Assembly: GCF_020622065.1 (NCBI RefSeq)
Contig: NZ_JAHRYQ010000001.1
Location: 930,001-994,000 of the forward strand
DNA: 64,000 bases
Direction: 5' to 3'
From: Geothrix sp.
Lineage (GTDB): Bacteria; Acidobacteriota; Holophagae; Holophagales; Holophagaceae
Part shown: positions 26,149 through 37,917 of the stretch, one piece after another
Layout: each line of letters starts with the position of its first letter
How positions within the stretch are numbered: the stretch's first letter is position 1
Position numbers and translations under genes: made by a program
Notes under the pieces: generated by a model
The model's input: only the letters and a program-made list of their open reading frames with translations
What the model was told of the DNA's origin: nothing
Databases searched by the model: none

Positions 26149-28782
26149 CTATTCCCCCGTTTCACCCTGGCCCGCCAGGCCCTGCAGCATCTGCCGGAGT
26201 TCGGCGAGGGTGAAGGGCTTCTGGAGGGCCAGGACGGAGGGGAAGCCCGCAAGCAGCAGCTTCAGTTCGTTGTCCAGGAATCCTGTGGTCACGAGGACCC
26301 GGAGGCCCGGACGGAGTTGGAGGATGCGGGGGAGGGTTTCGGCCCCGCTGAGACCCGGCATGTTGTGGTCGAGGATCACGAGGTCTGCCGGCAGGCCCGC
26401 ATCCAGGCGACGGATGGCCTCCAGGCCGCTGGAGGCCGTCTCCACCAGGTGGCCGAGTTGCTCAAGCATGACCGGCAGAATGCTCCGGATCAGGGCATCG
26501 TCATCCACCACGAGGATGTGGAGGCTGGTTGCCTGGGGAGCGGAGGTGGCCGGTTTAGCCTCGGTGGCCTCGGTGCCCTTTTCCGCGGCGGGGAAGCTGA
26601 GGCTGATGCGGGTTCCCTTGCCCACCTCGCTCTGAATGTCCAGGGTGCCCCCGTGGGCCTTCATGGTGCCGTAGACCATGGCCAGGCCCAGCCCCGTGCC
26701 CCGACCCGTGGGCTTGGTGGTGAAGAAGGGCTCGGTGACGCGGGGCAGGACCTCCGCGGGAATGCCCTGGCCCGTGTCGGCCACCACCAGAACCACCTGG
26801 GCGCCCTGCCGCCGGGTGCGGACCTGGAGGGTCCCGCCGCGGGGCATGGCGTCGAAGGCGTTCACGCAGAGGTTCATGAAGGCGCTGCCCAGGGTGCTCG
26901 GCTCGCCCATGATGGGCGGGAGGTCGTCTTCGAGCTGGACATCGAAGATGAACCGCTGCCGGCTTGTGCGGACGAGCAGATCGAGCTCCTCGCGGACCAT
27001 GGCGTTGAGATCCATGATCCGGGCCTCCTGCAGCCCTTTCCGGGCGAAGTCGGTGAGGCCCTTCACCAGGTCCCGGCCCCGGCCGGCGGCCTTCTCGATG
27101 GTCTGAAGCGAGCGCGCCAGGGACTCGTCGCCCTGGGCCTTGGCCTGCAGCAGAGAGGACATCCCCAGGATGGCGGTCAGCACATTGTTCATGTCGTGGG
27201 CAATGCCTCCGGCCAGGCTGCCCAGGCTGTCCAGCTTCTGGGCGTGCTGGATCTCGGTTTCCAGCTTCAGCCGTTCATCCTCAGCACGCCGCCGCTCGGT
27301 GAGATCCTGGACGAAGACCAGCATGGCCAGGCCACCGGGAAGGTCCAGCGAGACCGACTGGGCCTCCACCCAGACTTCGCGGCCCTTGAGGGTGATGAGG
27401 GTCATGGCCATGGGCTGGGCGGGCAGGTTCGATTCGTACAGGGCGCGGGCCCGTTCCCTCACCACGGCCTGGAAGTCTGGATGGACGAAAGGAATGACCT
27501 CGCGATCCAGAATGGCGCTAGGATCTCCGGCCTCCAGGAGCCGTGCCAGCGCCAGGTTCGCGTGGAGGATGCGCCCTTCTCGGTGGATGAACATGGGGGC
27601 GGGCGAGGATTCGAAGAGCTGCCGGAAGCGGGCCTCGCTCTCGCGGATCTGCCGGCTGGTTTGGACCTCCTGGGTGATGTCTCGGAGGAAGGCGACGATC
27701 TCGCCCTTGGAACTCAAGAGGGAGGTGGTGACCTCCAGGTCGAGGAGGCGGCCGTCCTTGGCGCGATGCTGGGTCCGGAAGCGGTGCTCCACATCCAGGC
27801 CCTGCTGGATGTCCGCGAAGTGGTGGGCGGTCTCCTCAGGGGTTTCCTGAACCTCGACCAGGGAAATGGGCTGCCCCAGGAGCTCCTCCCGATCGTACCC
27901 GGACAGGCGGCAGTAGGTCTCGTTCACCCACTGGAGGTGCCCCTCCCGATCCAGGAACCACAGGCTGTCCGGCGTGGTGGCCCGGATCGCCTCGAAGCGC
28001 TGAGACCGCTCTTTCAGCTCTTCGACCATCCGCTGCTGCACCTGCGCCGACCGCACGATCCGCCGCACCCAAACGAAGATGGCGCCTGCACCCATGAGCC
28101 AGAACGAGGCCACGGCCAGCAGGGAGATGGCCTTGTGGGACAGGCCGAGGGCCGAGGGGCCCGACCCGACCGGCACGGTGACGCTGATGCCGCCCCGGAC
28201 ATCACCGACCTTGTAGCCCTGTTGGGCGTGGCAGGCCAGGCAACCCTGATCGACGAGGAAGGCGCCCATGTAGCGCAGCACCGGGCGGCCTTTCTCCTGC
28301 AACACCTCGGAGTAATCCCGGGCTCCGCGTTCGAAGGATTCGAGGGCCCTCCGCTCCCAGGCATCCGGCGCATTTTCGGGCCGGATGGGGTGGAGGCTGG
28401 TGAGGTGGCCCTGCAGCCCGTAGGCATCAGCTCCGAGTTCGTGCACCATCCGTGTCATGTAGGCGGGGTTCACCAGGGTGAGCGTCTTCCCCTGGGTGGT
28501 GGTGACATCCCGGTCCGGCCGGTGGGACAGATGCGGATTGGGGGGCGTCTTCTCGTTGAGCGGCACATAGACCCCGCCCCGCTCCGAGGCCCAGCGGCGG
28601 TAGGCCAGATCCTTGTGGTAGCTGTCCACGGCCCGGTTGAGGGCGATCTCCCGCTCCTCCCGGGTGGAGAAATACAGGACCAGCCCCAGGATGCAGCCCA
28701 CGATCACCGACCAGATGCCGAGCAGGAACAGGAAGGTCCTGGGCATGCTGGGCCGGATCAGGGCAGTGGGTATTTTGAACAT
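26149..28782 (-). CDS. Hybrid histidine kinase with a heme-binding periplasmic DUF3365 domain
   Basis: The 877-residue protein has a membrane helix near residues 15-38, a periplasmic DUF3365 (Tll0287-like) domain carrying CLACH (C181, C184, H185) for covalent heme c, and a second helix near 219-240. Two PAS domains (about 265-380 and 390-500) follow, then HisKA (H in GGIAHDMNN), HATPase_c (FFTTKP, GTGLGLAM) and a C-terminal receiver with LVILDHNMPG. It probably senses redox state or a diatomic gas. It is the last gene of the chemotaxis operon, 56 bases after cheB. ATG 28782 avoids overlap with cheB, but its ribosome-binding site is poor; ATG 28743 and a longer start at 28896 are alternatives. 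Confidence 0.85.
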   Translation of the reverse strand: MFKIPTALIRPSMPRTFLFLLGIWSVIVGCILGLVLYFSTREEREIALNRAVDSYHKDLAYRRWASERGGVYVPLNEKTPPNPHLSHRPDRDVTTTQGKTLTLVNPAYMTRMVHELGADAYGLQGHLTSLHPIRPENAPDAWERRALESFERGARDYSEVLQEKGRPVLRYMGAFLVDQGCLACHAQQGYKVGDVRGGISVTVPVGSGPSALGLSHKAISLLAVASFWLMGAGAIFVWVRRIVRSAQVQQRMVEELKERSQRFEAIRATTPDSLWFLDREGHLQWVNETYCRLSGYDREELLGQPISLVEVQETPEETAHHFADIQQGLDVEHRFRTQHRAKDGRLLDLEVTTSLLSSKGEIVAFLRDITQEVQTSRQIRESEARFRQLFESSPAPMFIHREGRILHANLALARLLEAGDPSAILDREVIPFVHPDFQAVVRERARALYESNLPAQPMAMTLITLKGREVWVEAQSVSLDLPGGLAMLVFVQDLTERRRAEDERLKLETEIQHAQKLDSLGSLAGGIAHDMNNVLTAILGMSSLLQAKAQGDESLARSLQTIEKAAGRGRDLVKGLTDFARKGLQEARIMDLNAMVREELDLLVRTSRQRFIFDVQLEDDLPPIMGEPSTLGSAFMNLCVNAFDAMPRGGTLQVRTRRQGAQVVLVVADTGQGIPAEVLPRVTEPFFTTKPTGRGTGLGLAMVYGTMKAHGGTLDIQSEVGKGTRISLSFPAAEKGTEATEAKPATSAPQATSLHILVVDDDALIRSILPVMLEQLGHLVETASSGLEAIRRLDAGLPADLVILDHNMPGLSGAETLPRILQLRPGLRVLVTTGFLDNELKLLLAGFPSVLALQKPFTLAELRQMLQGLAGQGETGE

Positions 28783-28838
28783 GGTGGGGCCGGGGAAAAT
28801 CAGGGTCGGGGTGGCCGCTGAAGGTCGGGGGAGGTCGG

Positions 28839-29918
28839 TCAGGGCTGGCGTTCGCACCACTCTGCGATGACGCGGGGTATCAAGGGAAGGGGACATTGCT
28901 CCATCACGGCGCCGCGGGCCCAGGCGACCCGGGGCATGCCGTAGACCACGCAGGTGGCTTCGTCCTGGCCGAGGGTGCGGGCGCCCCGCTGGCGCATGCG
29001 GAGGAGGCCCCTGGCGCCATCCTCGCCCATGCCCGTGAGGATGATGCCCAAGGCGTGGGGGCCGCAGGCTTCGGCCACGGATTCGAAGAGCACATCCACC
29101 GAGGGCAGGTGGCGGGAGACCCGTTCGCCCTCCTTCAGCTGGACGGCCAGGCCCGCGCCGCGGCGGACCGCGGTGAAGTGCTGGTCGCTGGGGGCGAGGT
29201 AGACCGTTCCCCCCTGAAGGGGCTCCCCGTCTTCGGCGACCTTCACGGTGGCGGCGCTGGTCCGGTCCAGACGGTCCGCAAAGGCCGGGGTGAAGCCCGG
29301 GAGCATGTGCTGAACCACGGCAATGGGTGGAAGGTTCCCTGGGATGGCTTCGAAGATCCGGCGGAGGGCCTCGGTGCCGCCCGTGCTGGAGCCGATGGCG
29401 ATGAGGCTGCGGCCGGCCCGGGCCCGGGCGGCCAGGGGAGCTATGGAAGCCATGGAGGACGGGGAGGCCAGGGAGGGTGGGACGGGGGCACTGGCGGTGC
29501 GGTGGATCCGGGCGAAGGAGGCCGCGTGCACGGTCTCGGCGATTTCAGTCCCCATGGCTTCCAGGCCCACGGCCTGATCCAGGGCGGGCTTGCCGATCAC
29601 ATCCACGGCGCCGAGGTCCAGCGCATCGAGGGCGGTGGCGGTGCCCTTGTCCGTGAGGCTGGAGAGCATCACCACCGGCATTGGATGGGCCCGCATGAGC
29701 TTGTCCAGGAAGGTGAGGCCATCCATGCGGGGCATCTCGACATCCAGCGTCAGGACATCTGGCGAGAGCTGCTTGATCTTCTCCCGGGCATCGTAGGGAT
29801 CCCGGGCCGTGCCCACGACTTCGAGCAGGGGATGGCGGGCGAGGATGGCGCTGAGCACCTGGCGGACCAGGGCGCTGTCATCCACGACGAGCACGCGCCG
29901 CTTGGCGTCCGCGGTCAT
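28839..29918 (-). CDS. cheB: Chemotaxis protein-glutamate methylesterase/deamidase
   Basis: The 359-residue protein has a receiver domain (DDS near residues 13-15; acceptor Asp in LTLDVEMPRMDG), a linker of about 50 residues rich in Ala, Ser and Pro, and a C-terminal methylesterase domain. The esterase domain shows GSSTGG (catalytic Ser), VQHM (catalytic His) and ILTGMGEDG. When phosphorylated by CheA it removes methyl groups from receptors. Its ATG overlaps the cheD stop by four bases. Confidence 0.96.
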   Translation of the reverse strand: MTADAKRRVLVVDDSALVRQVLSAILARHPLLEVVGTARDPYDAREKIKQLSPDVLTLDVEMPRMDGLTFLDKLMRAHPMPVVMLSSLTDKGTATALDALDLGAVDVIGKPALDQAVGLEAMGTEIAETVHAASFARIHRTASAPVPPSLASPSSMASIAPLAARARAGRSLIAIGSSTGGTEALRRIFEAIPGNLPPIAVVQHMLPGFTPAFADRLDRTSAATVKVAEDGEPLQGGTVYLAPSDQHFTAVRRGAGLAVQLKEGERVSRHLPSVDVLFESVAEACGPHALGIILTGMGEDGARGLLRMRQRGARTLGQDEATCVVYGMPRVAWARGAVMEQCPLPLIPRVIAEWCERQP

Positions 29919-30526
29919 GAGAAGAGCTCCACATCACCCTCGAGGGGCACTTGGCTGACTTCGCGGAAGTAGGAGCGTTCGCGGTCGAGGACGGTGTCGT
30001 TGTGGGTGTGCTCGATGCGCTTGACGAGGACCTGGCCCGTATGGGGGAAGAAGTAGACCTTGCGAGGGCAGGCACCCCCCATGTCCTCGTTCCAGAGGGG
30101 AATGCCCTCCGCCCGGAGGAAGCCGCGGACGAAGTCGATGTTCTGGGCGCCGACATCGGTGAGCCCCCGCATGACCTTGCCGCCGCCGAAGGCCTTGGCC
30201 ACCAGGCGATCCCGCTGGGCGCCAAGGTGCAGCAGGTTGTTGATGAGGTATTCCATGGCGGCGGCGCCGTAGCGGGCCGCGTAGAACACATCGGGGTCGC
30301 GCTCCCCCTGCTTGGCGGGGAGCATGAAGTGGTTCATGCCGCCCACCATGGCGATGGGGTCCAGAAGGCACGCGGCCACGCAGCTCCCCAGCACGGTGAC
30401 GATCACCTCGTCCTCGGCCGTGGCGTAGAACTCGCCGGGGAGGATCTTCATGGCCTGGCGGTTGAAGTGCCGATCCAGGTACTTGGAGGCCCGGCCGAGG
30501 ACCAGGGGAACGGGAGGCGGGCTCAC
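29915..30526 (-). CDS. cheD: Chemoreceptor glutamine deamidase CheD
   Basis: The 203-residue protein has the CheD signature: catalytic Cys in LGSCVAACL and His in GGMNHFMLP, then FGGGKVM. CheD deamidates receptor glutamines and, in some bacteria, partners CheC. No cheC or cheX gene is in this operon. The start is GTG 30526, overlapping the cheR stop (GTGA), with GGAGG seven bases upstream. An internal ATG at MKILPG is possible but would cut a conserved N-terminal region and lacks a clear ribosome-binding site. Confidence 0.93.
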   Translation of the reverse strand: MSPPPVPLVLGRASKYLDRHFNRQAMKILPGEFYATAEDEVIVTVLGSCVAACLLDPIAMVGGMNHFMLPAKQGERDPDVFYAARYGAAAMEYLINNLLHLGAQRDRLVAKAFGGGKVMRGLTDVGAQNIDFVRGFLRAEGIPLWNEDMGGACPRKVYFFPHTGQVLVKRIEHTHNDTVLDRERSYFREVSQVPLEGDVELFS

Positions 30527-31407
30527 GGGGCGCCCTCCTTCCGCCGGTAGATGGTCTGGCCCAGGGGTTGGAAGCCCAGGGCCGCATCCAGCAGGGCCTC
30601 GGAATGGCCGACGAACAGAAGGCCCCCCGGGACCAGGGCCTGCCGGAACCGGCCCAGGAGCTCCCGCTGGGTGGGCTTGTCGAAGTAGATCATCACATTG
30701 CGGCAGAAGATGGCCTGGAAGGGCCCGCCCTCCAGGGGCCAGGCGGCGTCGCGCAGGTTCATCGGGTGGAACGAGACCAGATCCCTGACCTCGGGCCGCA
30801 CCCGCGCCTGGCCGCGGCGCTCGCCCGTGCCGCGCAGGAAGGCGAAGCGCTTCCACTCATCGGACAGCCCCTCAATGCGGGCCATGGGGTAGATGCCGCG
30901 GGCGGCGGTCTCCAACACAGCGGTGTCCAGGTCCGTGGCCACGATCTGGATGCGGGCCGAGGGGCCGAAGGCCTTCAGCAGGGTCATGGCCAAGGTGTAG
31001 GGCTCCTCACCGGTGGAGCAGCCGGCGCTCCAGACGCGGAGCTTGCCTGTGGCGGCGTCCGAGGCCGCGAGCAGCTCCACCAGCCGTGTGAAATGGTGCC
31101 CTTCCCGGAAGAAGCTGGTGAGGTTCGTCGTGAGGGCGTTGATGAACTCGGCCCACTCGCTGGAGTCGGTCTCGCTGACCTTTTCCAGGTAGGCCTCGTA
31201 GTCAGGCAGGCCCAGGACGCGCAACCGCTTGGCCAGGCGGGACTGGACCATCGTGAGCTTGTGGGGGGCCAGGGCGATGCCCGAATGGCCGTGCAAGAGA
31301 TTCCGCAAGGCCTGGAAGGTTTCCTGGGACAGCGGCACGCGGTCGGGCCCGGCGATCTCCCGGAGCGCCGGGCCCCGGGGCCCGTGGTCCGCGGTGGACC
31401 GCGTCAT
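30523..31407 (-). CDS. cheR: Chemotaxis protein methyltransferase
   Basis: The 294-residue protein has the N-terminal CheR helical domain, with LTTNLTSFFREGHHF, and the S-adenosylmethionine-binding domain, with VWSAGCSTGEEPYTLAM and FCRNVMIYFDKPTQ. It methylates glutamates on chemoreceptors. The membrane receptor of this operon ends in a CheR-docking-like pentapeptide, which would tether it. The start overlaps the cheA stop by four bases. Confidence 0.96.
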   Translation of the reverse strand: MTRSTADHGPRGPALREIAGPDRVPLSQETFQALRNLLHGHSGIALAPHKLTMVQSRLAKRLRVLGLPDYEAYLEKVSETDSSEWAEFINALTTNLTSFFREGHHFTRLVELLAASDAATGKLRVWSAGCSTGEEPYTLAMTLLKAFGPSARIQIVATDLDTAVLETAARGIYPMARIEGLSDEWKRFAFLRGTGERRGQARVRPEVRDLVSFHPMNLRDAAWPLEGGPFQAIFCRNVMIYFDKPTQRELLGRFRQALVPGGLLFVGHSEALLDAALGFQPLGQTIYRRKEGAP

Positions 31408-33518
31408 GTCTCGACCGTGGCTGGGACCGTAGCTGGGACCGCGGCGGCGGTGGCCTCCATGCGCAGGAGCCCCGGCACATCGAGGATCAGGGCCACGCGG
31501 CCGTCCCCCAGGATGGTGGCGCCCGAGATGCCCTCCACGCGGCGGTAATGGGTCTCCAGGCTCTTGATGACCACCTGTTGCTGGCCCAGAAGCTCATCCA
31601 CGGCCATGGCGGCCCGCCGACCCTCGGATTCCACCAGCACCAGCAGCGTGCGGCCGGTGGTGCCGTCTGCAGCGCCGCCCTCCATCAGACGCTGGAGGCG
31701 CACCACGGGGATGAACTCGCCCCGCAGGCTGATCACCTCGCGGTCGCCCTTCACGGTCTGGATGTCCGAGGCCTGTCGCTGGAAGCTCTCCAGCACCGAG
31801 GCCAGGGGGAAGACGAAGGTCTCCTCGCCCACCCGCACCGTGAGCCCGTCCAGGATGGCCAGCGTGAGGGGCAGGACCAGGCGGATGGTGGTGCCCCGGC
31901 CGACCTGGCTTTCGACCTCGATTCGGCCCCCCAGGGCCCGCACATTCTGGCGCACCACATCCATCCCCACCCCGCGGCCGGAGAGGTCCGAGACCTGCTC
32001 GACGGTGGAGAAGCCCGGCTCGAAGATCAGCAGGTTCAGCTCCTCATCCGGGGGCCGGTTGCCGGCGGGCAGCAAGCCGCGCTCCACGGCCTTCGCGAAG
32101 ATGCGGTCCCGGTCCAGGCCGCGACCGTCGTCCTTGACCTCGATGTGGATGTGCCCGCCGCGGCTGGCGGCCCTCAGGGCGATGGTGCCCACGGCGGGCT
32201 TGCCGGAGGCGAGGCGCGCTTCCTTCTCTTCCATGCCGTGGTCCACGGCGTTGCGCACCAGGTGCGTGAGGGGATCCACCAGCATCTCGATGAAGGTCTT
32301 GTCCAGCTCCGTGGCCTGGCCCTCCATGACCAGTTCGACATCCTTCCCCAGCTGCTTGCCCAGTTCGTGGACCATGCGCGGAAAGCGTGAGAACACCATG
32401 TCCACGGGGACCATGCGGATGCCCATGACCCGCTCCTGCAGCTCGCGGGTCTGGCGATCCAGCTGGAGGAGGGCTGCACTCATCCGCTCCTCGCCCGCGG
32501 GCGTGTGGGCCAGCTGTGAGGCCTGGGCCAGCATGGCCTGGGTGATGACCAGTTCGCCCACCAGGTTCACCAGCCGGTCGATCTTGTCGGTGGCCACCCG
32601 GACCGTGGAGGCCTCCGCCTGGTTCCGCTTTTTCTGCTGCTGGTCCAGGGCCTTGCTGACGGCCTCGGGCTTCACCTTGCCCGCCTCCACCAGCAGCTCG
32701 CCCAGGTGCTTCTGCTGGGAGAGCGCGTCACGGATGTCCTTGGGGCTGACGCCGGCTTCCACCTGGAGGATCTCGCCCAGGGGGGGCACGGCATGCTCGG
32801 GCGGCAGGGGCTGGATGCGCAGGTTCTTGCCTTCCACCACGAACTCGAAGATCTCCTCCACGCTTGCCTGCGGGCAGGCCGACTCGAGGCGGAGGTCCCA
32901 GGCCAGGTGGCAGTCCTCGGGTTCCAGCTGGTCGAAGGCCGGAAGCCGCGTGGCGTCCAGCCAGGCGCGCAGGGTGCCGAGCTTGCCCAGATCCCGGAAC
33001 AGCCGCTCCAGGTTCACGCCACGGCGGAAGGCATCCACCGGGGCCTCGAAGCGGATGGCGAAGCCGGTGCCGCTCCTGGGTGCGGGGGGGGCTCCGGGAG
33101 CTGCGGGCGCCGGCGCGCCGGGCAGGGTCGCGCCGGCCTGGAGCTTGGCGACCAGGGTCTCCTGGGCCAGCTGGTCCTTGGCCGGGAGGGCCTCCTCCAG
33201 CCGGGCGTGGTGCAGGTGGCTGCGGATGAGGTCCACGCCCTGCAGCAGGAGCTCGCGCAGATCGGCGGTCATGGCCCGGGAGCCCTGGCGCACGGGCTCC
33301 AGGGTGTTCTCCAGCTGGTGGGTGAAGGCGGCCACCGCGGGAAACCCGAAGGTGCCCGCGTTGCCCTTGATGGAATGCGCCGCCCGGAACAGCGTATGCA
33401 GATCCTCCGTCTCCACGGCCTCCAGATCCAGGGACAGCAGGGTGGCCTCCATGCCATCCGCCAGTTCAGTCGCCTCCTCGAAGAAGGCCGTGCGGAATTG
33501 AGCCATCGGATCGGACAT
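31404..33518 (-). CDS. cheA: Chemotaxis sensor kinase CheA
   Basis: The 704-residue protein has the P1 phosphotransfer domain with H48 in AAHSIKGNAGTFGF, and a linker carrying an unusual helical segment (IRDALSQQKHLGELLVEAGKV) like the N-terminal domain of type II secretion ATPases. The P3 dimerisation domain begins at about TDKIDRLVNLVGEL. The P4 kinase domain follows (N-box HLVRNAVDHGMEE; GRGVGMDVV), then the P5 CheW-like domain. There is no obvious P2 CheY-binding domain of the E. coli kind. The C-terminus ends in a short PATV repeat. It lies eight bases after cheY. Confidence 0.95.
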   Translation of the reverse strand: MSDPMAQFRTAFFEEATELADGMEATLLSLDLEAVETEDLHTLFRAAHSIKGNAGTFGFPAVAAFTHQLENTLEPVRQGSRAMTADLRELLLQGVDLIRSHLHHARLEEALPAKDQLAQETLVAKLQAGATLPGAPAPAAPGAPPAPRSGTGFAIRFEAPVDAFRRGVNLERLFRDLGKLGTLRAWLDATRLPAFDQLEPEDCHLAWDLRLESACPQASVEEIFEFVVEGKNLRIQPLPPEHAVPPLGEILQVEAGVSPKDIRDALSQQKHLGELLVEAGKVKPEAVSKALDQQQKKRNQAEASTVRVATDKIDRLVNLVGELVITQAMLAQASQLAHTPAGEERMSAALLQLDRQTRELQERVMGIRMVPVDMVFSRFPRMVHELGKQLGKDVELVMEGQATELDKTFIEMLVDPLTHLVRNAVDHGMEEKEARLASGKPAVGTIALRAASRGGHIHIEVKDDGRGLDRDRIFAKAVERGLLPAGNRPPDEELNLLIFEPGFSTVEQVSDLSGRGVGMDVVRQNVRALGGRIEVESQVGRGTTIRLVLPLTLAILDGLTVRVGEETFVFPLASVLESFQRQASDIQTVKGDREVISLRGEFIPVVRLQRLMEGGAADGTTGRTLLVLVESEGRRAAMAVDELLGQQQVVIKSLETHYRRVEGISGATILGDGRVALILDVPGLLRMEATAAAVPATVPATVET

Positions 33519-33526
33519 GGGGGACC

Positions 33527-33889
33527 TCAGATGACCTTGTTGACGACATCGAGGAGCTTCTCGGGGCTGAAGGGCTTCACGATCCAGCCGGTGGCTCCCG
33601 CCTCTTTGCCCTTCTGCTTCATGTCCGGGCCGGATTCGGTGGTGAGCACCAGGATGGGCGTGAACCTGAACTCCGGCAGGGCGCGCATCCGCTGCACCAG
33701 CGTGATGCCGTCCATGCGCGGCATGTTCACATCGGTGATGACCAGGGACAGTTTCTTCCCCTGGGCCACCTCCAGGGCCTCCACGCCATCCCCCGCTTCG
33801 AGGACCTCGAACTGGGCCCCCCTCAGGGTGAAGCTGATCATCTGGCGCATGGTGCTGGAGTCATCGACGGTCAGAATGCATCCGGGCAT
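33527..33889 (-). CDS. cheY: Chemotaxis response regulator CheY
   Basis: This 120-residue single receiver domain has VDDS (D9, D10), phospho-acceptor D53 in VITDVNMPRMDG, the conserved Thr in LTTES and the Lys in VKPF. In chemotaxis it carries the signal from CheA to the flagellar motor switch. Its place between the soluble receptor-like protein and cheA makes it the operon's output protein. No standalone CheZ, CheC or CheX gene is present. Confidence 0.95.
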   Translation of the reverse strand: MPGCILTVDDSSTMRQMISFTLRGAQFEVLEAGDGVEALEVAQGKKLSLVITDVNMPRMDGITLVQRMRALPEFRFTPILVLTTESGPDMKQKGKEAGATGWIVKPFSPEKLLDVVNKVI

Positions 33890-33904: not shown

Positions 33905-34999
33905 CTAGAACAGGTCTACTTCGCCCGCAGCCAGGTCGCCCCGCTTCACGGCCTTGAATTGAACGCGGGCGTCCTCGACTTCGCCCAGGGTGGCATGCAG
34001 CTCGGAGAGGACCATGGCGGGGACCTCCCCGGCCGCCAGCTTGGATTCGGCCACCCGCCAGGCATGGGCCTGTTCCATCAGGTTGCCCAGCTCCTGCAGG
34101 CAGGCCGTGAGGGTCTGGTGGACCAGATCCTCGAACTGGAGGCTGCGCACCACATGCCCCACCTGCTGGGCGATGGTGAGGGCATTGGTCTCGAGCTGGG
34201 CCACCAGGTCCTTCACGCGGGCGTTGCTGGCCTCGAGGGCATGCACCAGCACCTCGGATTCGCCCTTGGACTGGATCGCCATATTCATGTCCTTGCTGGC
34301 GATGGCCTGGACATAGGCGTCCGTGCGCTCCAGGGCCTGGCGGGTGCCACTGATCTGGTCCTGGATGGTGGCGCTCAGGGCCGTGCTCCGGTCCGCCAGC
34401 TTGGAGACCTCGCCGGCCACCACCGCAAAGCCCGCGCCGAACTGACGGGCGTGGGCCGCCTCGATGCTGGCGTTCAGGGACAGCAGGTGGGTGCGGCCCG
34501 CGATTTCGGACAGCTCCCCCAGCATGCCTTCCATGCGGTCGGAGCGCGTCCGGATGTCCTCGATCTCCCCCACCAGCTGCATGGAGGACTTGGAGATCTC
34601 GAGCATGTTCGACACGAATCCATCCAGGGTCCCCATGATCGAGGCCCCCACGGCGTCCAGGCCCTCGGTGGCCTGGCCCCCTCCCAGCGTGATCCGCATG
34701 GCCACCTGGACATCCTCCGCCAGGCGATGCTGGTGCTGGACGCTCTGGTCCAAAGTCTTGAGCGCAGCCTCCAGGGTGGCGGCCGCCTCCCGGACCAGGC
34801 TGTCCACCTGGTGGAGTTCGGGCGTCAGGAAATTCACCTGGCCCTCCAGCATGGTGGCCTCCCGGGATGCCAGCTGCCCCAGCAGCGGCGCCAGGACTCC
34901 ATCCGGGATCGCCTCGGGCAGGCCGGCCGGGGCCGGAAGCTCCAGCGCCGTGACCCCGGCCGTGGCGGCGGGCGCCGAAGGAAGGAACCACTTCCTCAT
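33905..34999 (-). CDS. Soluble receptor-like chemotaxis protein with altered tip and CheZ-like motif
   Basis: The 364-residue protein has no membrane helix. Its centre matches the MCP signalling hairpin (EIAGRTHLLSLNASIEAAH, then GFAVVAGEVSKLADRS at about 165-205). The tip reads RQFGAGF where receptors have GExGRGF, so binding to CheA/CheW may be changed. Near the C-terminus QFEDLVHQ (288-295) presents D291-x3-Q295, the arrangement of the CheZ phosphatase motif (FQDLTGQ). It may dephosphorylate CheY or be a cytoplasmic receptor; the first idea is inference from a short motif. ATG 34999 overlaps the STAS gene stop by four bases. Confidence 0.75.
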   Translation of the reverse strand: MRKWFLPSAPAATAGVTALELPAPAGLPEAIPDGVLAPLLGQLASREATMLEGQVNFLTPELHQVDSLVREAAATLEAALKTLDQSVQHQHRLAEDVQVAMRITLGGGQATEGLDAVGASIMGTLDGFVSNMLEISKSSMQLVGEIEDIRTRSDRMEGMLGELSEIAGRTHLLSLNASIEAAHARQFGAGFAVVAGEVSKLADRSTALSATIQDQISGTRQALERTDAYVQAIASKDMNMAIQSKGESEVLVHALEASNARVKDLVAQLETNALTIAQQVGHVVRSLQFEDLVHQTLTACLQELGNLMEQAHAWRVAESKLAAGEVPAMVLSELHATLGEVEDARVQFKAVKRGDLAAGEVDLF

Positions 35000-35313
35000 G
35001 AGGGAACTTCCTGGAGCAGGTCGGTCAGGCCGAGGAGGTTGAAGCGGTCCTTCCAGGCCTCCTTGAGGCCGGTCAAGGCCAGGCATCCGCCCTTGGCGCG
35101 CAAGTCGCGGTCCAGGGTCGCCAGGAGCTGCAGGCCCGAGAGGTCCAGATCTCCGATGCCCGAGAGGTCCAGGACCGCCGGCAGGCCGCTGGCGGCCGCC
35201 TGCGCCGCGATCTGCTCCCACTGCGAGTGGATGGCGAAGATGTCCAGATCGCCCTGGAGGGCCAGGGCGATCTGGGGTGTCGATGGACCGGGCGGCGAAG
35301 GTTTCCGGGCCAT
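34996..35313 (-). CDS. STAS-domain protein in the chemotaxis operon
   Basis: The 105-residue product is a single STAS domain, with the strand-loop VLDLSGIGDLDLSGLQLLATL. The Ser of DLSG lies at the position phosphorylated in SpoIIAA/RsbV anti-anti-sigma proteins. Such domains in chemotaxis operons are thought to regulate partner kinases or receptors. ATG 35313 was chosen; an in-frame TTG at 35322 overlaps the cheW stop (TTGA) and is an alternative. The stop overlaps the next gene by four bases. The kinase, if any, could be the receiver-HATPase protein at 2030-2941, but nothing links them directly. Confidence 0.82.
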   Translation of the reverse strand: MARKPSPPGPSTPQIALALQGDLDIFAIHSQWEQIAAQAAASGLPAVLDLSGIGDLDLSGLQLLATLDRDLRAKGGCLALTGLKEAWKDRFNLLGLTDLLQEVPS

Positions 35314-35318
35314 GGCGA

Positions 35319-35819
35319 TCAAGCTGTGGCCGCTTCGAGGGCGAGCAGTTCGCCGTCCGAGAGCAGGCGGTCCAGGTCGAGGAGGATCAGCATGGAATCC
35401 GAGCCCGTGGCGCCGGGCAGGGAGGCCAGGCCGGCGATGAACTCGCGGCCCAGCGCGGTCTGGGTGCCGAGCTCAGGTGCCGGCCGGATGGCCGAGGCGT
35501 CGAGATCGAGCACATCGGAGACGGAGTCCACGCGAATGCCCAGGGTGCGGCCCTGGACCTCGACGATGATGATGACGGGGCGGGTGTCCTCGGGCGCCTC
35601 TCCCAGGGCGAACCGCTGCCGCAGCTCGAGGATCGGCACGATGGCTCCCCGCAGGTTGATCACGCCGGGCATGTACGACGGCGCTTTGGGGATCCGGGTG
35701 ATGGTGGCCTGGGCCTGGATCTCCCGGACCTTCAGGATGGGCAGGGCGTAGGCCTCGCCAGCGAGGGCGAAGCAGAGCACCTGCTGGAGCGCCTGGAAAC
35801 TGCTGTCAGCGGCGGCCAT
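35319..35819 (-). CDS. cheW: Chemotaxis coupling protein CheW
   Basis: The 166-residue protein has the two-barrel CheW fold, with FALAGEAYALPILKVREI, the central GVINLRGAIVPILELRQRF and GIRVDSVSDVLDL. CheW bridges receptors and CheA. ATG 35819 is chosen because GAGGAG sits seven bases upstream, beside the receptor's stop; a longer reading would overlap it. It lies 11 bases after the membrane receptor gene. Confidence 0.95.
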   Translation of the reverse strand: MAAADSSFQALQQVLCFALAGEAYALPILKVREIQAQATITRIPKAPSYMPGVINLRGAIVPILELRQRFALGEAPEDTRPVIIIVEVQGRTLGIRVDSVSDVLDLDASAIRPAPELGTQTALGREFIAGLASLPGATGSDSMLILLDLDRLLSDGELLALEAATA

Positions 35820-35830
35820 GGCGGGGCTCC

Positions 35831-37561
35831 TCAAAAGGCTTCCCACTGCCCGTCGTCGTCGCTCCGGGGCGTGGGCACGGGCTGCTTGGCGGCGGCGAGT
35901 TCGGGCCGGGCGCTGCCGCGCTTCACGGCGGCACGGACGGGCTTGGCGGTCGGGCGGAGCGCCTGGGGGTGCGGGGCGCCATTGGGGCGGACGCGGGTGG
36001 CTTCCGTGCGACGGACTTCCACGCCGGTCTTGAACCGGGCCACGATCTCCGTCAGGGCGTGGGCCTGGGCATCCAGGGATTCGGCGGCGGCGGCGGATTC
36101 CTCCACCAGGGCAGCGTTCTGCTGCGTGACTTCGTCCATCTGGACCACGGCCTTGTTGATCTCGTTCAGGCCCGTGCTCTGCTCCTGGGTGGCCCCGGCA
36201 ATCTCGCCCACGAGCGAGGTCACGCGCTGCACATTGGTCACCACCTCCTGGATGGTGTCTCCGGCGTGGGCGGCGACCTTGGTGCCGTCCTGGGACTTGG
36301 CGACGCTTTCGCGGATGAGGACCTTGATCTCCTTGGCGGCGTCGGCGCTGCGCTTAGCGAGGTTGCGGACTTCCGCCGCCACCACCGCGAAGCCGCGGCC
36401 CTGCTCGCCGGCCCGGGCGGCCTCCACCGCGGCATTGAGCGCCAGCAGGTTGGTCTGGAAGGCGATCTCGTCCACCACGCCGATGATCTCGTTGATCTTC
36501 GCGGAGCTCTGGTTGATGGCCTCCATGGCCTCGATGACCTGACCGACGGCGGTGCCGCCGTCCTGGGCCACCTGGCGGGCCTTGCCGGATTCCTGGTTGG
36601 CGGACCGGGCGTTGTCGGCGGTCTGGTTCACATTGCTGGTGATCTGCTCCATGCTGCTGGCCGTCTCTTCAAGGCTGGCGGCCTGTTCCTCGGTGCGACG
36701 ACTCAGGTCCGTATTGCCCATGGAGATCTCGCCCGAGGCCGTGGAGATGGCCAGCGCGCTTTCCTGGATCTGCAGCACCATCTCCCGCAGTCCTTCATTG
36801 GTGGTGTTGATGATGCGTCCCAGCTCGCCCAGTTCGTCCTTCGAGCGGAGCTCAAGGCGCTGGGTCAGGTCACCCTGGGCCACGGTCTCCATGACCGCAC
36901 CCACTTCCCGCAGTGGATGGGTGATGCTGCGGGTGATGAAGAAGGACATCAAGGAGCCGGCGATCAGGGCCAACACCGAGCAGGAAACGACGATGATCAT
37001 GGCCTGTTTATAGCTGTCCTTGGCTTGCTCGTGGCGTGCGGTGACGGCACTATCGAAAAATTTGACGGTCTTGAGGACCGCATCCTGAAGGGCCTGATCC
37101 GCCGGACGGGCCTCATCGAACATCAGCCGGGTGGCTTCTTTGTCCCGGCCCGCTAGGTTGGCCTCTATGACATGGTTGTTGGCCGTTCTTACTTTCTGAA
37201 GTTGCACCTGCAGGTTCTCAAAATTCGCCTTCGCTTCCGGGCTGACGAGGGAGTCCTCGAGCTTCTTGGACAGATCGTTAAAAATGTCGCGCGCCTTGCC
37301 GATCCGCTCGACGGCTGCTTTCCGATCCGGGATGTTGTCCATGAGGAGGATGGTCCGGGTGATGCGGCTGATCGTGAAGAGCTGATCGGACATGCCATTG
37401 GCCCAGGCCACCTGCTTGTTGTAACGAGTGACGATCTCGTTGGTGTCATCCGCGATGTGGCTCATCCGGTTCAATCCGACGCCTGCGATGAGTAGGAGGA
37501 GCGCCAGGACAATTCCGAAGCCAACGCTCAGGCGAGTTCCGATCTTCAGGTTGGTGAGCAC
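35831..37561 (-). CDS. Methyl-accepting chemotaxis protein with C-terminal QWEAF tether
   Basis: The 576-residue receptor has a helix near residues 10-33, a periplasmic domain of about 140 residues that looks like a four-helix bundle, a second helix near 187-208, a HAMP domain (ITHPLREVG) and a full signalling domain. The tip [27 protein letters not shown] is intact. A Pro/Ala/Lys-rich linker ends in QWEAF, a close variant of the NWETF peptide that docks CheR and CheB. GTG 37561 follows GGAGGA; upstream ATG codons lack a ribosome-binding site. It is the first gene of the chemotaxis operon, so its upstream region should hold the operon promoter. Confidence 0.92.
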
Positions 37562-37917
37562 GGTGGTTCCTCCGAGTGGAGCGGTAGGGGAAAGGGCTAC
37601 AGGCGAGCGCATTAATTGCAAAAAAGGCCAAGGCAAAATCGACCAGGCATAATAGTTATGCTTACTTTTTCATGACACCCTCGACTGTCCACGAAGGGCT
37701 CTGGGTGATGGATGAACTTCTTCCATCGGCATCGCTGATTGACGGATAACAATTGGTGATCTTCGAGTGATCTTTGTCACAGTCCTCAGCAACTCGATCG
37801 ATACCGCCGGGAAGACACGGTCAAATCGGAGATGCACCGCGGAACGACAGGACCTGCCCGCTTGGAGCTTCCGTCGCAGATTGAGACAGGCCCCTTTTTT
37901 GGATTGGTGAGTCACCC
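37562..37917. other. 356-bp AT-rich divergent control region
   Basis: No gene is seen here. The stretch separates the chemotaxis operon from the divergent 1667-residue kinase gene, is clearly richer in A and T than its surroundings, and must hold both promoters. A palindrome with arms GCATAA/TTATGC spans 37647-37661 and includes CATAAT, similar to a -10 box. I could not place a convincing -35/-10 pair or a sigma-28 or sigma-54 site. Confidence 0.6.

Follow-up and report, generated by a model that had tools for sequence, protein, structure and literature searches.

A soluble chemoreceptor-like protein encoded beside cheY as a candidate CheY phosphatase in a Geothrix-like bacterium

Many bacteria have a chemosensory (che) system that includes CheY but no known phosphatase gene, and how the signal is ended in such systems is a gap. 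The F7 stage-1 cluster consists of genes for STAS, cheY, cheA, two cheW, aer2, cheR, cheD, cheB, an mcpA-like receptor, STAS and a serine phosphatase, and in F7 stages 1-2 the clusters have cheY while cheZ is found solely in a separate F6 system (Ortega et al., 2020, PMC7184735). Deletion of the McpA-like receptor leaves the arrays unaffected, the C-terminus of McpA is strikingly conserved with a role described as 'unclear', and in Pseudomonas aeruginosa McpA a valine as second residue of what would be the CheR pentapeptide prevents CheR binding (PMC7184735). Earlier work, cited in PMC7184735, reported that McpA of P. aeruginosa associates with the F6 array. The function of a further group, the VC1394-type receptors, has been called unknown (PMC7534058, PMC2890568).

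Among the phosphatases, CheZ has the layout AXXFQ/DXXXQ (PMC7750401). Sinorhizobium meliloti CheT, which has no recognisable kinship to known Che proteins, carries DXXXQ and dephosphorylates one CheY, and its operon also encodes the STAS protein CheS (PMC12654446). No paper assigning a phosphatase function to MCP-like proteins was found in the open-access PMC literature.

The che operon and its receptor-like protein

The window analyzed here is a stretch of 64,000 nucleotides from a Geothrix-like genome of the Holophagaceae, whose closest relative is 95% identical. It contains a che operon on the minus strand in the order MCP, CheW, STAS, X, CheY, CheA, CheR, CheD, CheB and hybrid histidine kinase, where X is the receptor-like protein studied here. 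As the initial annotation had stated, cheZ, cheC and cheX are all absent from the genes of this operon.

35831..37636, minus strand: membrane MCP of the operon, with methylation sites and a CheR-type pentapeptide (QWEAF), unlike X
35319..35846, minus strand: CheW (domain match)
34996..35313, minus strand: STAS-domain protein of 105 aa, upstream of X, between cheW and X (PF13466, 1.1e-12; PF01740, 1.8e-11)
33905..34999, minus strand: X, soluble MCP-like protein of 364 aa, candidate CheY phosphatase (PF00015, alignments A1/A3/A8, AlphaFold helices)
34115..34138, minus strand: QFEDLVHQ, X residues 288-295, with candidate catalytic D291 and Q295 (invariance, tip spacing)
33908..33937, minus strand: tail DLAAGEVDLF, X residues 355-364, candidate docking peptide (F364 invariant; G359, V361 and L363 nearly so)
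33527..33889, minus strand: CheY, proposed substrate of X, directly downstream of it (PF00072, 1.6e-27; DVN/TTE/KPF active-site residues)
31404..33518, minus strand: CheA, with Hpt, dimerisation, HATPase and CheW domains (domain matches)
30523..31407, minus strand: CheR (domain match)
29915..30451, minus strand: CheD, with an inferred ATG start and the C-terminus PLEGDVELFS (PF03975, 2.6e-29; translation)
28839..29918, minus strand: CheB (domain match)
26149-28896, minus strand: hybrid histidine kinase after cheB, Tll0287-PAS-PAS-HisKA-HATPase-receiver (domain matches)

The ATG at 34999, which gives the N-terminus MRKWFLP, was taken as the start of X because it overlaps the 3' end of the STAS gene and most relatives start at the same place; a longer in-frame upstream reading is possible. 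MCPsignal (PF00015, 1.8e-18) was the sole Pfam domain of X, with no sensor domain, and there was no apparent transmembrane region. AlphaFold predicted helices at residues 33-105, 114-183, 188-322, 327-343 and 358-363, with low confidence for residues 1-29, and Foldseek searches against the PDB matched X to solved MCPs. X is like MCPs in its PF00015 signalling hairpin and fold, but differs from them in having an extra D-x3-Q helix and a tail, and in being without sensor domain, methylation sites or CheR tether. The methylation consensus was absent from X in both strict and loose form, whereas the adjoining membrane MCP has three sites; likewise, X has no CheR pentapeptide. In the wider X family, the methylation consensus was found in 14 of 42 members, compared with 27 of 32 other MCPs. 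The MCP tip is changed in the window subfamily of X (RTHLLSLNASIEAAHARQFGAGF) and degenerate in the members at loci L117, L119 and L133, in which the motif and tail described below are still there. Many X relatives keep a canonical tip.

By description, X resembles the McpA-like receptors known from F7 systems (P. aeruginosa CttP/PA0180, Vibrio cholerae VCA1088) and VC1394 of F9, each an odd MCP in a CheZ-less che cluster with STAS genes and in part also Ser-phosphatase genes. The end of X, EVDLF, fits the description of the McpA C-terminus with its valine at the second position, and the Vibrio member of the X family (L070) shares the F7 stage-1 order CheR-CheD-CheB-X-STAS-SpoIIE. X is soluble, whereas the McpA-like F7 receptors and VC1394 of the F9 system are membrane-anchored; hydrophobic stretches were present at the N-terminus of the Vibrio (L070), Aeromonas (L077) and Pseudomonas (L078) members. 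The Aeromonas and Pseudomonas plasmid loci, with their order X-CheY-STAS-CheA, may correspond to the V. cholerae F9 cluster. X is probably akin to the McpA-like and VC1394-type receptors of CheZ-less F7 and F9 systems. It also resembles S. meliloti CheT, another DXXXQ protein that is encoded in a che operon with STAS and does not belong to the recognised CheZ family, CheT being a shown phosphatase and X a candidate, but CheT has 124 aa, no MCP domain and the C-terminus GDFEAF.

The gene directly following X is cheY (33889..33527), in agreement with the initial annotation. This CheY has the same residues as Escherichia coli CheY at the active-site positions N59 and E89. Residues of this type are rate-setting and imply slow self-dephosphorylation, and hence a use for a phosphatase. 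At the other end of the operon, the slot after cheB holds the hybrid histidine kinase in the window, and STAS plus a Cache-SpoIIE-HATPase protein in two relatives.

Motif and tail

QFEDLVHQ falls within the long predicted helix 188-322, and its earlier assignment to a C-terminal helix of a soluble receptor-like protein was borne out by the domain and structure predictions. The numbering of D291 and Q295 was also right, and the position given before (34112-34140) is here refined to 34138..34115, with D291 encoded at 34129..34127 and Q295 at 34117..34115. An aspartate and a glutamine four residues apart had been offered as ground for a possible phosphatase. This does not hold, since a bare D-x3-Q occurs in the corresponding arm of 27 of the 32 other MCPs at the loci analyzed, and the bare pattern was dropped as evidence. 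The fuller pattern QFxDxxxQ was found in one of the 15 MCPsignal genes of the genome, namely X, and its occurrence in its exact place is more than chance.

Conservation of the motif was assessed in an alignment (A8) of 14 sequences with 20-95% identity to X, from Acidobacteriota and from Vibrio, Aeromonas, Pseudomonas and Eleftheria (Gamma-/Betaproteobacteria). Outside the MCP tip, the only invariant columns were Q288, D291, Q295 and F364. D291 and Q295 were thus retained down to 20% identity, while the residues between them vary (LVH, RVS, IIV, VFK), and a conserved D-x3-Q pair in FxD context was present in every X relative examined. The distance from the tip Glu to the motif Asp was 111 residues in 22 of 23 members and 112 in one, degenerate-tip members included, and this constancy indicates a fixed position of the D/Q site on the helical bundle. 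The persistence of motif and tail where the tip is degenerate is what would be expected if selection moved from kinase control to the D/Q site. Among 19 Holophagaceae orthologs, a set biased by pattern-based recruitment, QVGHVVRxLQFEDLVHQTLxAC was among the best-conserved parts of X.

The divergent members from Vibrio (L070), Eleftheria (L071), Aeromonas (L077) and Pseudomonas (L078) were recruited by tblastn ranking against plasmids with no motif requirement, and these four plasmid-borne loci make up the proteobacterial sample of the family. Ten of the ranked plasmid MCPs were inspected. The four carrying the motif were all located in che clusters, and the six without it (L073-L076, L079, L080) had no cheY or STAS neighbors where annotated. 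A tblastn search with C-terminal thirds against plasmids and a scan of viral contigs returned only self matches or no relatives.

The tail of X is a short predicted helix (358-363) behind a weakly predicted stretch. Its variants among members of the family (GEVDLF, GDVELF, DVTFF, DITFF, DNVELF, GEITLF) are all acidic-hydrophobic. Motif and tail occurred together in 41 of 74 distinct MCP-tip open reading frames, and 32 had neither, an association whose Fisher p is overstated by the kinship among members; in the single discordant case, the reading frame continues into neighboring CheY sequence, which accounts for the discordance. The tail is similar to the CheY-docking ends of the FliM (SQEEVDALL, MAKILSQEEVDALL) and CheZ2 (MDQSEIDALL) of the same genome and of E. 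coli CheZ (SQDQVDDLL, SQDQVDDLLDSLGF).

A DNA pattern for the tail at gene ends matched two genes only in the whole genome, X and cheD. The CheD of the window ends in EGDVELFS, the same tail as that of X, and an X-type tail was present on CheD in 15 of 16 such operons, including those of Vibrio and another acidobacterial family (GDVELF(S/T)-like ends in the window, L002, L003, L011, L012, L016, L017, L019, L022, L067, L068, L070, L127, L134 and L135). Several proteobacterial CheD proteins from plasmid-borne loci share it as well, some of them with no X nearby. Judged by sequence, the tail is a putative docking motif common to X and CheD with a partner within the che machinery, for which CheY would be the simplest candidate; given that CheD has the same tail, that of X may bind something other than CheY. 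A role of the tail as a CheR tether was judged unlikely, with valine at position 2.

Relation to CheZ and gene neighborhood

The genome encodes a CheX-domain protein (C1:1164448; L001 1456-3291, C1 about 1164.4-1166.2 kb), a HAMP-CheZ protein (C1:1249304) and a second che operon, in which a CheZ (C1:587751; L029 7545-8156, C1 about 587.5-588.2 kb) lies beside the CheY of that operon. The wider premise that the genome has no phosphatase elsewhere therefore fails. The initial annotation had named a CheC, CheX or CheZ gene elsewhere that explains the dephosphorylation as grounds against its reading; such genes exist, but they do not explain the X system, as they lie outside its operon and the second-operon CheZ has its own cheY. 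Cross-action of these proteins on the X system may occur. The initial annotation had passed over these genes, as well as the conserved tail of X and the STAS gene between cheW and X. FliM is also encoded, so the genome can build a flagellar motor switch. The CheX domain is the only Pfam domain in an open frame of ~611 aa, where it occupies the C-terminal end, and the second-operon CheZ starts with MDQSEIDALLAGG, a FliM-like CheY-docking peptide that is N-terminal and not C-terminal.

X itself had no CheZ match in Pfam (PF04344) at E<=1 or in NCBIfam (NF041271) at E<=0.001. A profile built from the C-termini of X proteins alone, however, matched the second-operon CheZ (E 8e-6) as well as orthologs of that CheZ in further genomes. 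The second-operon CheZ itself scored 26.1 bits, while the best of 3000 shuffled proteins reached 19.3. E. coli CheZ scored 4.5 bits, in register but not significant. With hhalign, the similarity of X to CheZ families covered only 49 columns around the motif helix (E 2e-4, probability 47%). CheZ was not among the best 50 Foldseek matches of X in the PDB, but the search likewise missed it for a control model of a Pfam-certified CheZ. Given the lack of Pfam and NCBIfam matches and the non-significant score of E. coli CheZ, X was classed as an MCP-fold protein that would work like CheZ, not as a member of CheZ. The motif helices of X and CheZ could share ancestry or have converged. X is like CheZ (PF04344) in carrying D-x3-Q on a long helix, immediately preceded by [AS]xxF[QE], in the linker followed by a C-terminal candidate docking peptide, in a gene that adjoins cheY, and in a weak profile similarity to the CheZ-type protein of its own genome. 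It is unlike CheZ in its scaffold, an MCP signalling hairpin instead of the CheZ hairpin, and in a tail one residue shorter than the FliM/CheZ core.

In every locus with enough flank, X has cheY, STAS, or STAS and receiver-SpoIIE genes as direct neighbors, and no CheZ was found inside the X gene group; these loci come from several families of Acidobacteriota and from proteobacteria of four genera. Most other loci also have a STAS gene next to X; STAS and receiver-SpoIIE genes come after X in L065, L066 and the Vibrio locus L070, and the X operon of two Geothrix-type relatives closes with STAS-SpoIIE. Of 26 genomes of the genus, 14 carry both X and an ortholog of the operon CheA (at least 74% identical), and the remaining 12 lack both. 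In 9 genomes, judged by coordinates, and in 2 more, a CheZ-type gene instead lies no more than 4 kb from the other CheA type (36-38% identical). This pairing suggests that each system has one D-x3-Q protein adjoining cheY, either X or CheZ. The exclusivity is not absolute, as in two relatives a HAMP-CheZ gene occurs a few kb past the X operon or che genes.

Some loci depart from the usual arrangement. L129 (5039-6814) encodes a family member of 592 aa in which QFHDITRQ is preceded by a degenerate MCP tip and followed by a second MCP-like stretch (376-465); this protein ends in DNVELF and adjoins CheY and CheA. In one Holophagaceae genome, L130 (1258-5331 and 11204-15316) holds a tandem pair of similar X-CheY-STAS-CheA units. 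The genome of the window itself carries a truncated second copy of the window CheA (L110 7745-8971, C2 about 405.7-407.0 kb), 76% identical over residues 228-482, with no Hpt and a cut CheW domain, ~2 kb from an IS110 transposase.

Proposed function and alternatives

The reading that we favor, and hold to be reasonably probable from sequence comparison, is that X derives from a chemoreceptor, is no longer a sensor and dephosphorylates the adjacent CheY by CheZ-type chemistry. The same function had been proposed for this protein on grounds that were too weak by themselves; the proposal now gains comparative support from the invariant D/Q pair, its fixed spacing, the linkage to cheY, the lack of a CheZ in the operon, the tail and the CheZ profile similarity. 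Like MCPs in general, X would form a dimeric antiparallel helical bundle, and its tail EVDLF would dock on the FliM/CheZ-binding face of CheY-P, raising the local CheY-P concentration. The D291/Q295 pair, located 111 residues from the hairpin tip in the C-terminal arm, would then enter the CheY active site, where, as in CheZ, Gln would position the attacking water and Asp would touch the active-site Lys. The partly kept tip may hold X at the receptor array, the site of CheY-P production. As counterpoints, the HAMP-CheZ near the X operon in two relatives could serve the X system, and relatives with a canonical MCP tip might still signal to CheA.

An alternative that we consider unlikely is that X docks CheY or another receiver through its tail and D/Q helix as a scaffold, sink or competitor and not as a catalyst, keeping CheY at the array or limiting free CheY-P. 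The similarity of the tail to FliM and CheZ docking peptides and the constant linkage of X to a receiver or STAS gene would agree with such binding, but mere binding does not need a D and a Q that stay invariant at 20% identity amid changing residues. It is quite unlikely that X is a true cytoplasmic chemoreceptor acting via CheW and CheA, with a structural helix motif and a tail that is a degenerate CheR/CheB tether. X does have an MCPsignal domain, its tail occupies the place of a pentapeptide tether, canonical tips occur in several relatives, and the association of P. aeruginosa McpA with the F6 array, as cited in PMC7184735, points the same way. This is opposed by the missing methylation consensus and sensor domain of X, by the changed tip of the window subfamily and its strong degeneration in L117, L119 and L133 with motif and tail retained, and by the valine that blocks CheR binding and the unaffected arrays after deletion in the McpA-like case (PMC7184735).

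The STAS neighbors at most loci, the STAS and receiver-SpoIIE genes after X in L065, L066 and L070 and the STAS-SpoIIE at the operon end of two Geothrix-type relatives could also be read as a sign that X mainly serves STAS/SpoIIE partner switching, by acting on the receiver of receiver-SpoIIE proteins or by binding STAS, with the cheY linkage secondary. In the window and most relatives, however, a stand-alone CheY adjoins X and the operon has no SpoIIE, and we regard this option as very unlikely.

Returning to X as a phosphatase, relatives with the motif beside CheY in distant bacteria suggest, at the level of sequence, an overlooked family of receptor-shaped off-switches. In its broadest form, which we put forward tentatively and at somewhat less than even chance, this would be a widespread MCP-derived family of CheY phosphatases (QFxDxxxQ at +111, VELF/ITFF tail) in systems lacking CheZ, CheC and CheX, including McpA-like F7 and VC1394-type F9 receptors, with CheD sharing its docking site, probably on CheY, and coupling receptor deamidation to CheY-P without CheC. 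If true, a receptor-shaped phosphatase would fill the CheY-phosphatase gap, for example in F7 clusters without cheZ, and would account for the McpA-like receptors, with their conserved C-terminus and dispensability for arrays, and for the VC1394-type receptors. Annotation pipelines label X-type proteins as chemoreceptors.

A different kind of protein was seen on a Comamonadaceae plasmid (L140 2567-3028), where a 153-aa 'hypothetical protein' with LQSEDALVQ and the C-terminus GSIDLF is encoded beside cheY in a che cluster. By its sequence, it is a small non-MCP candidate phosphatase with an X-type tail.
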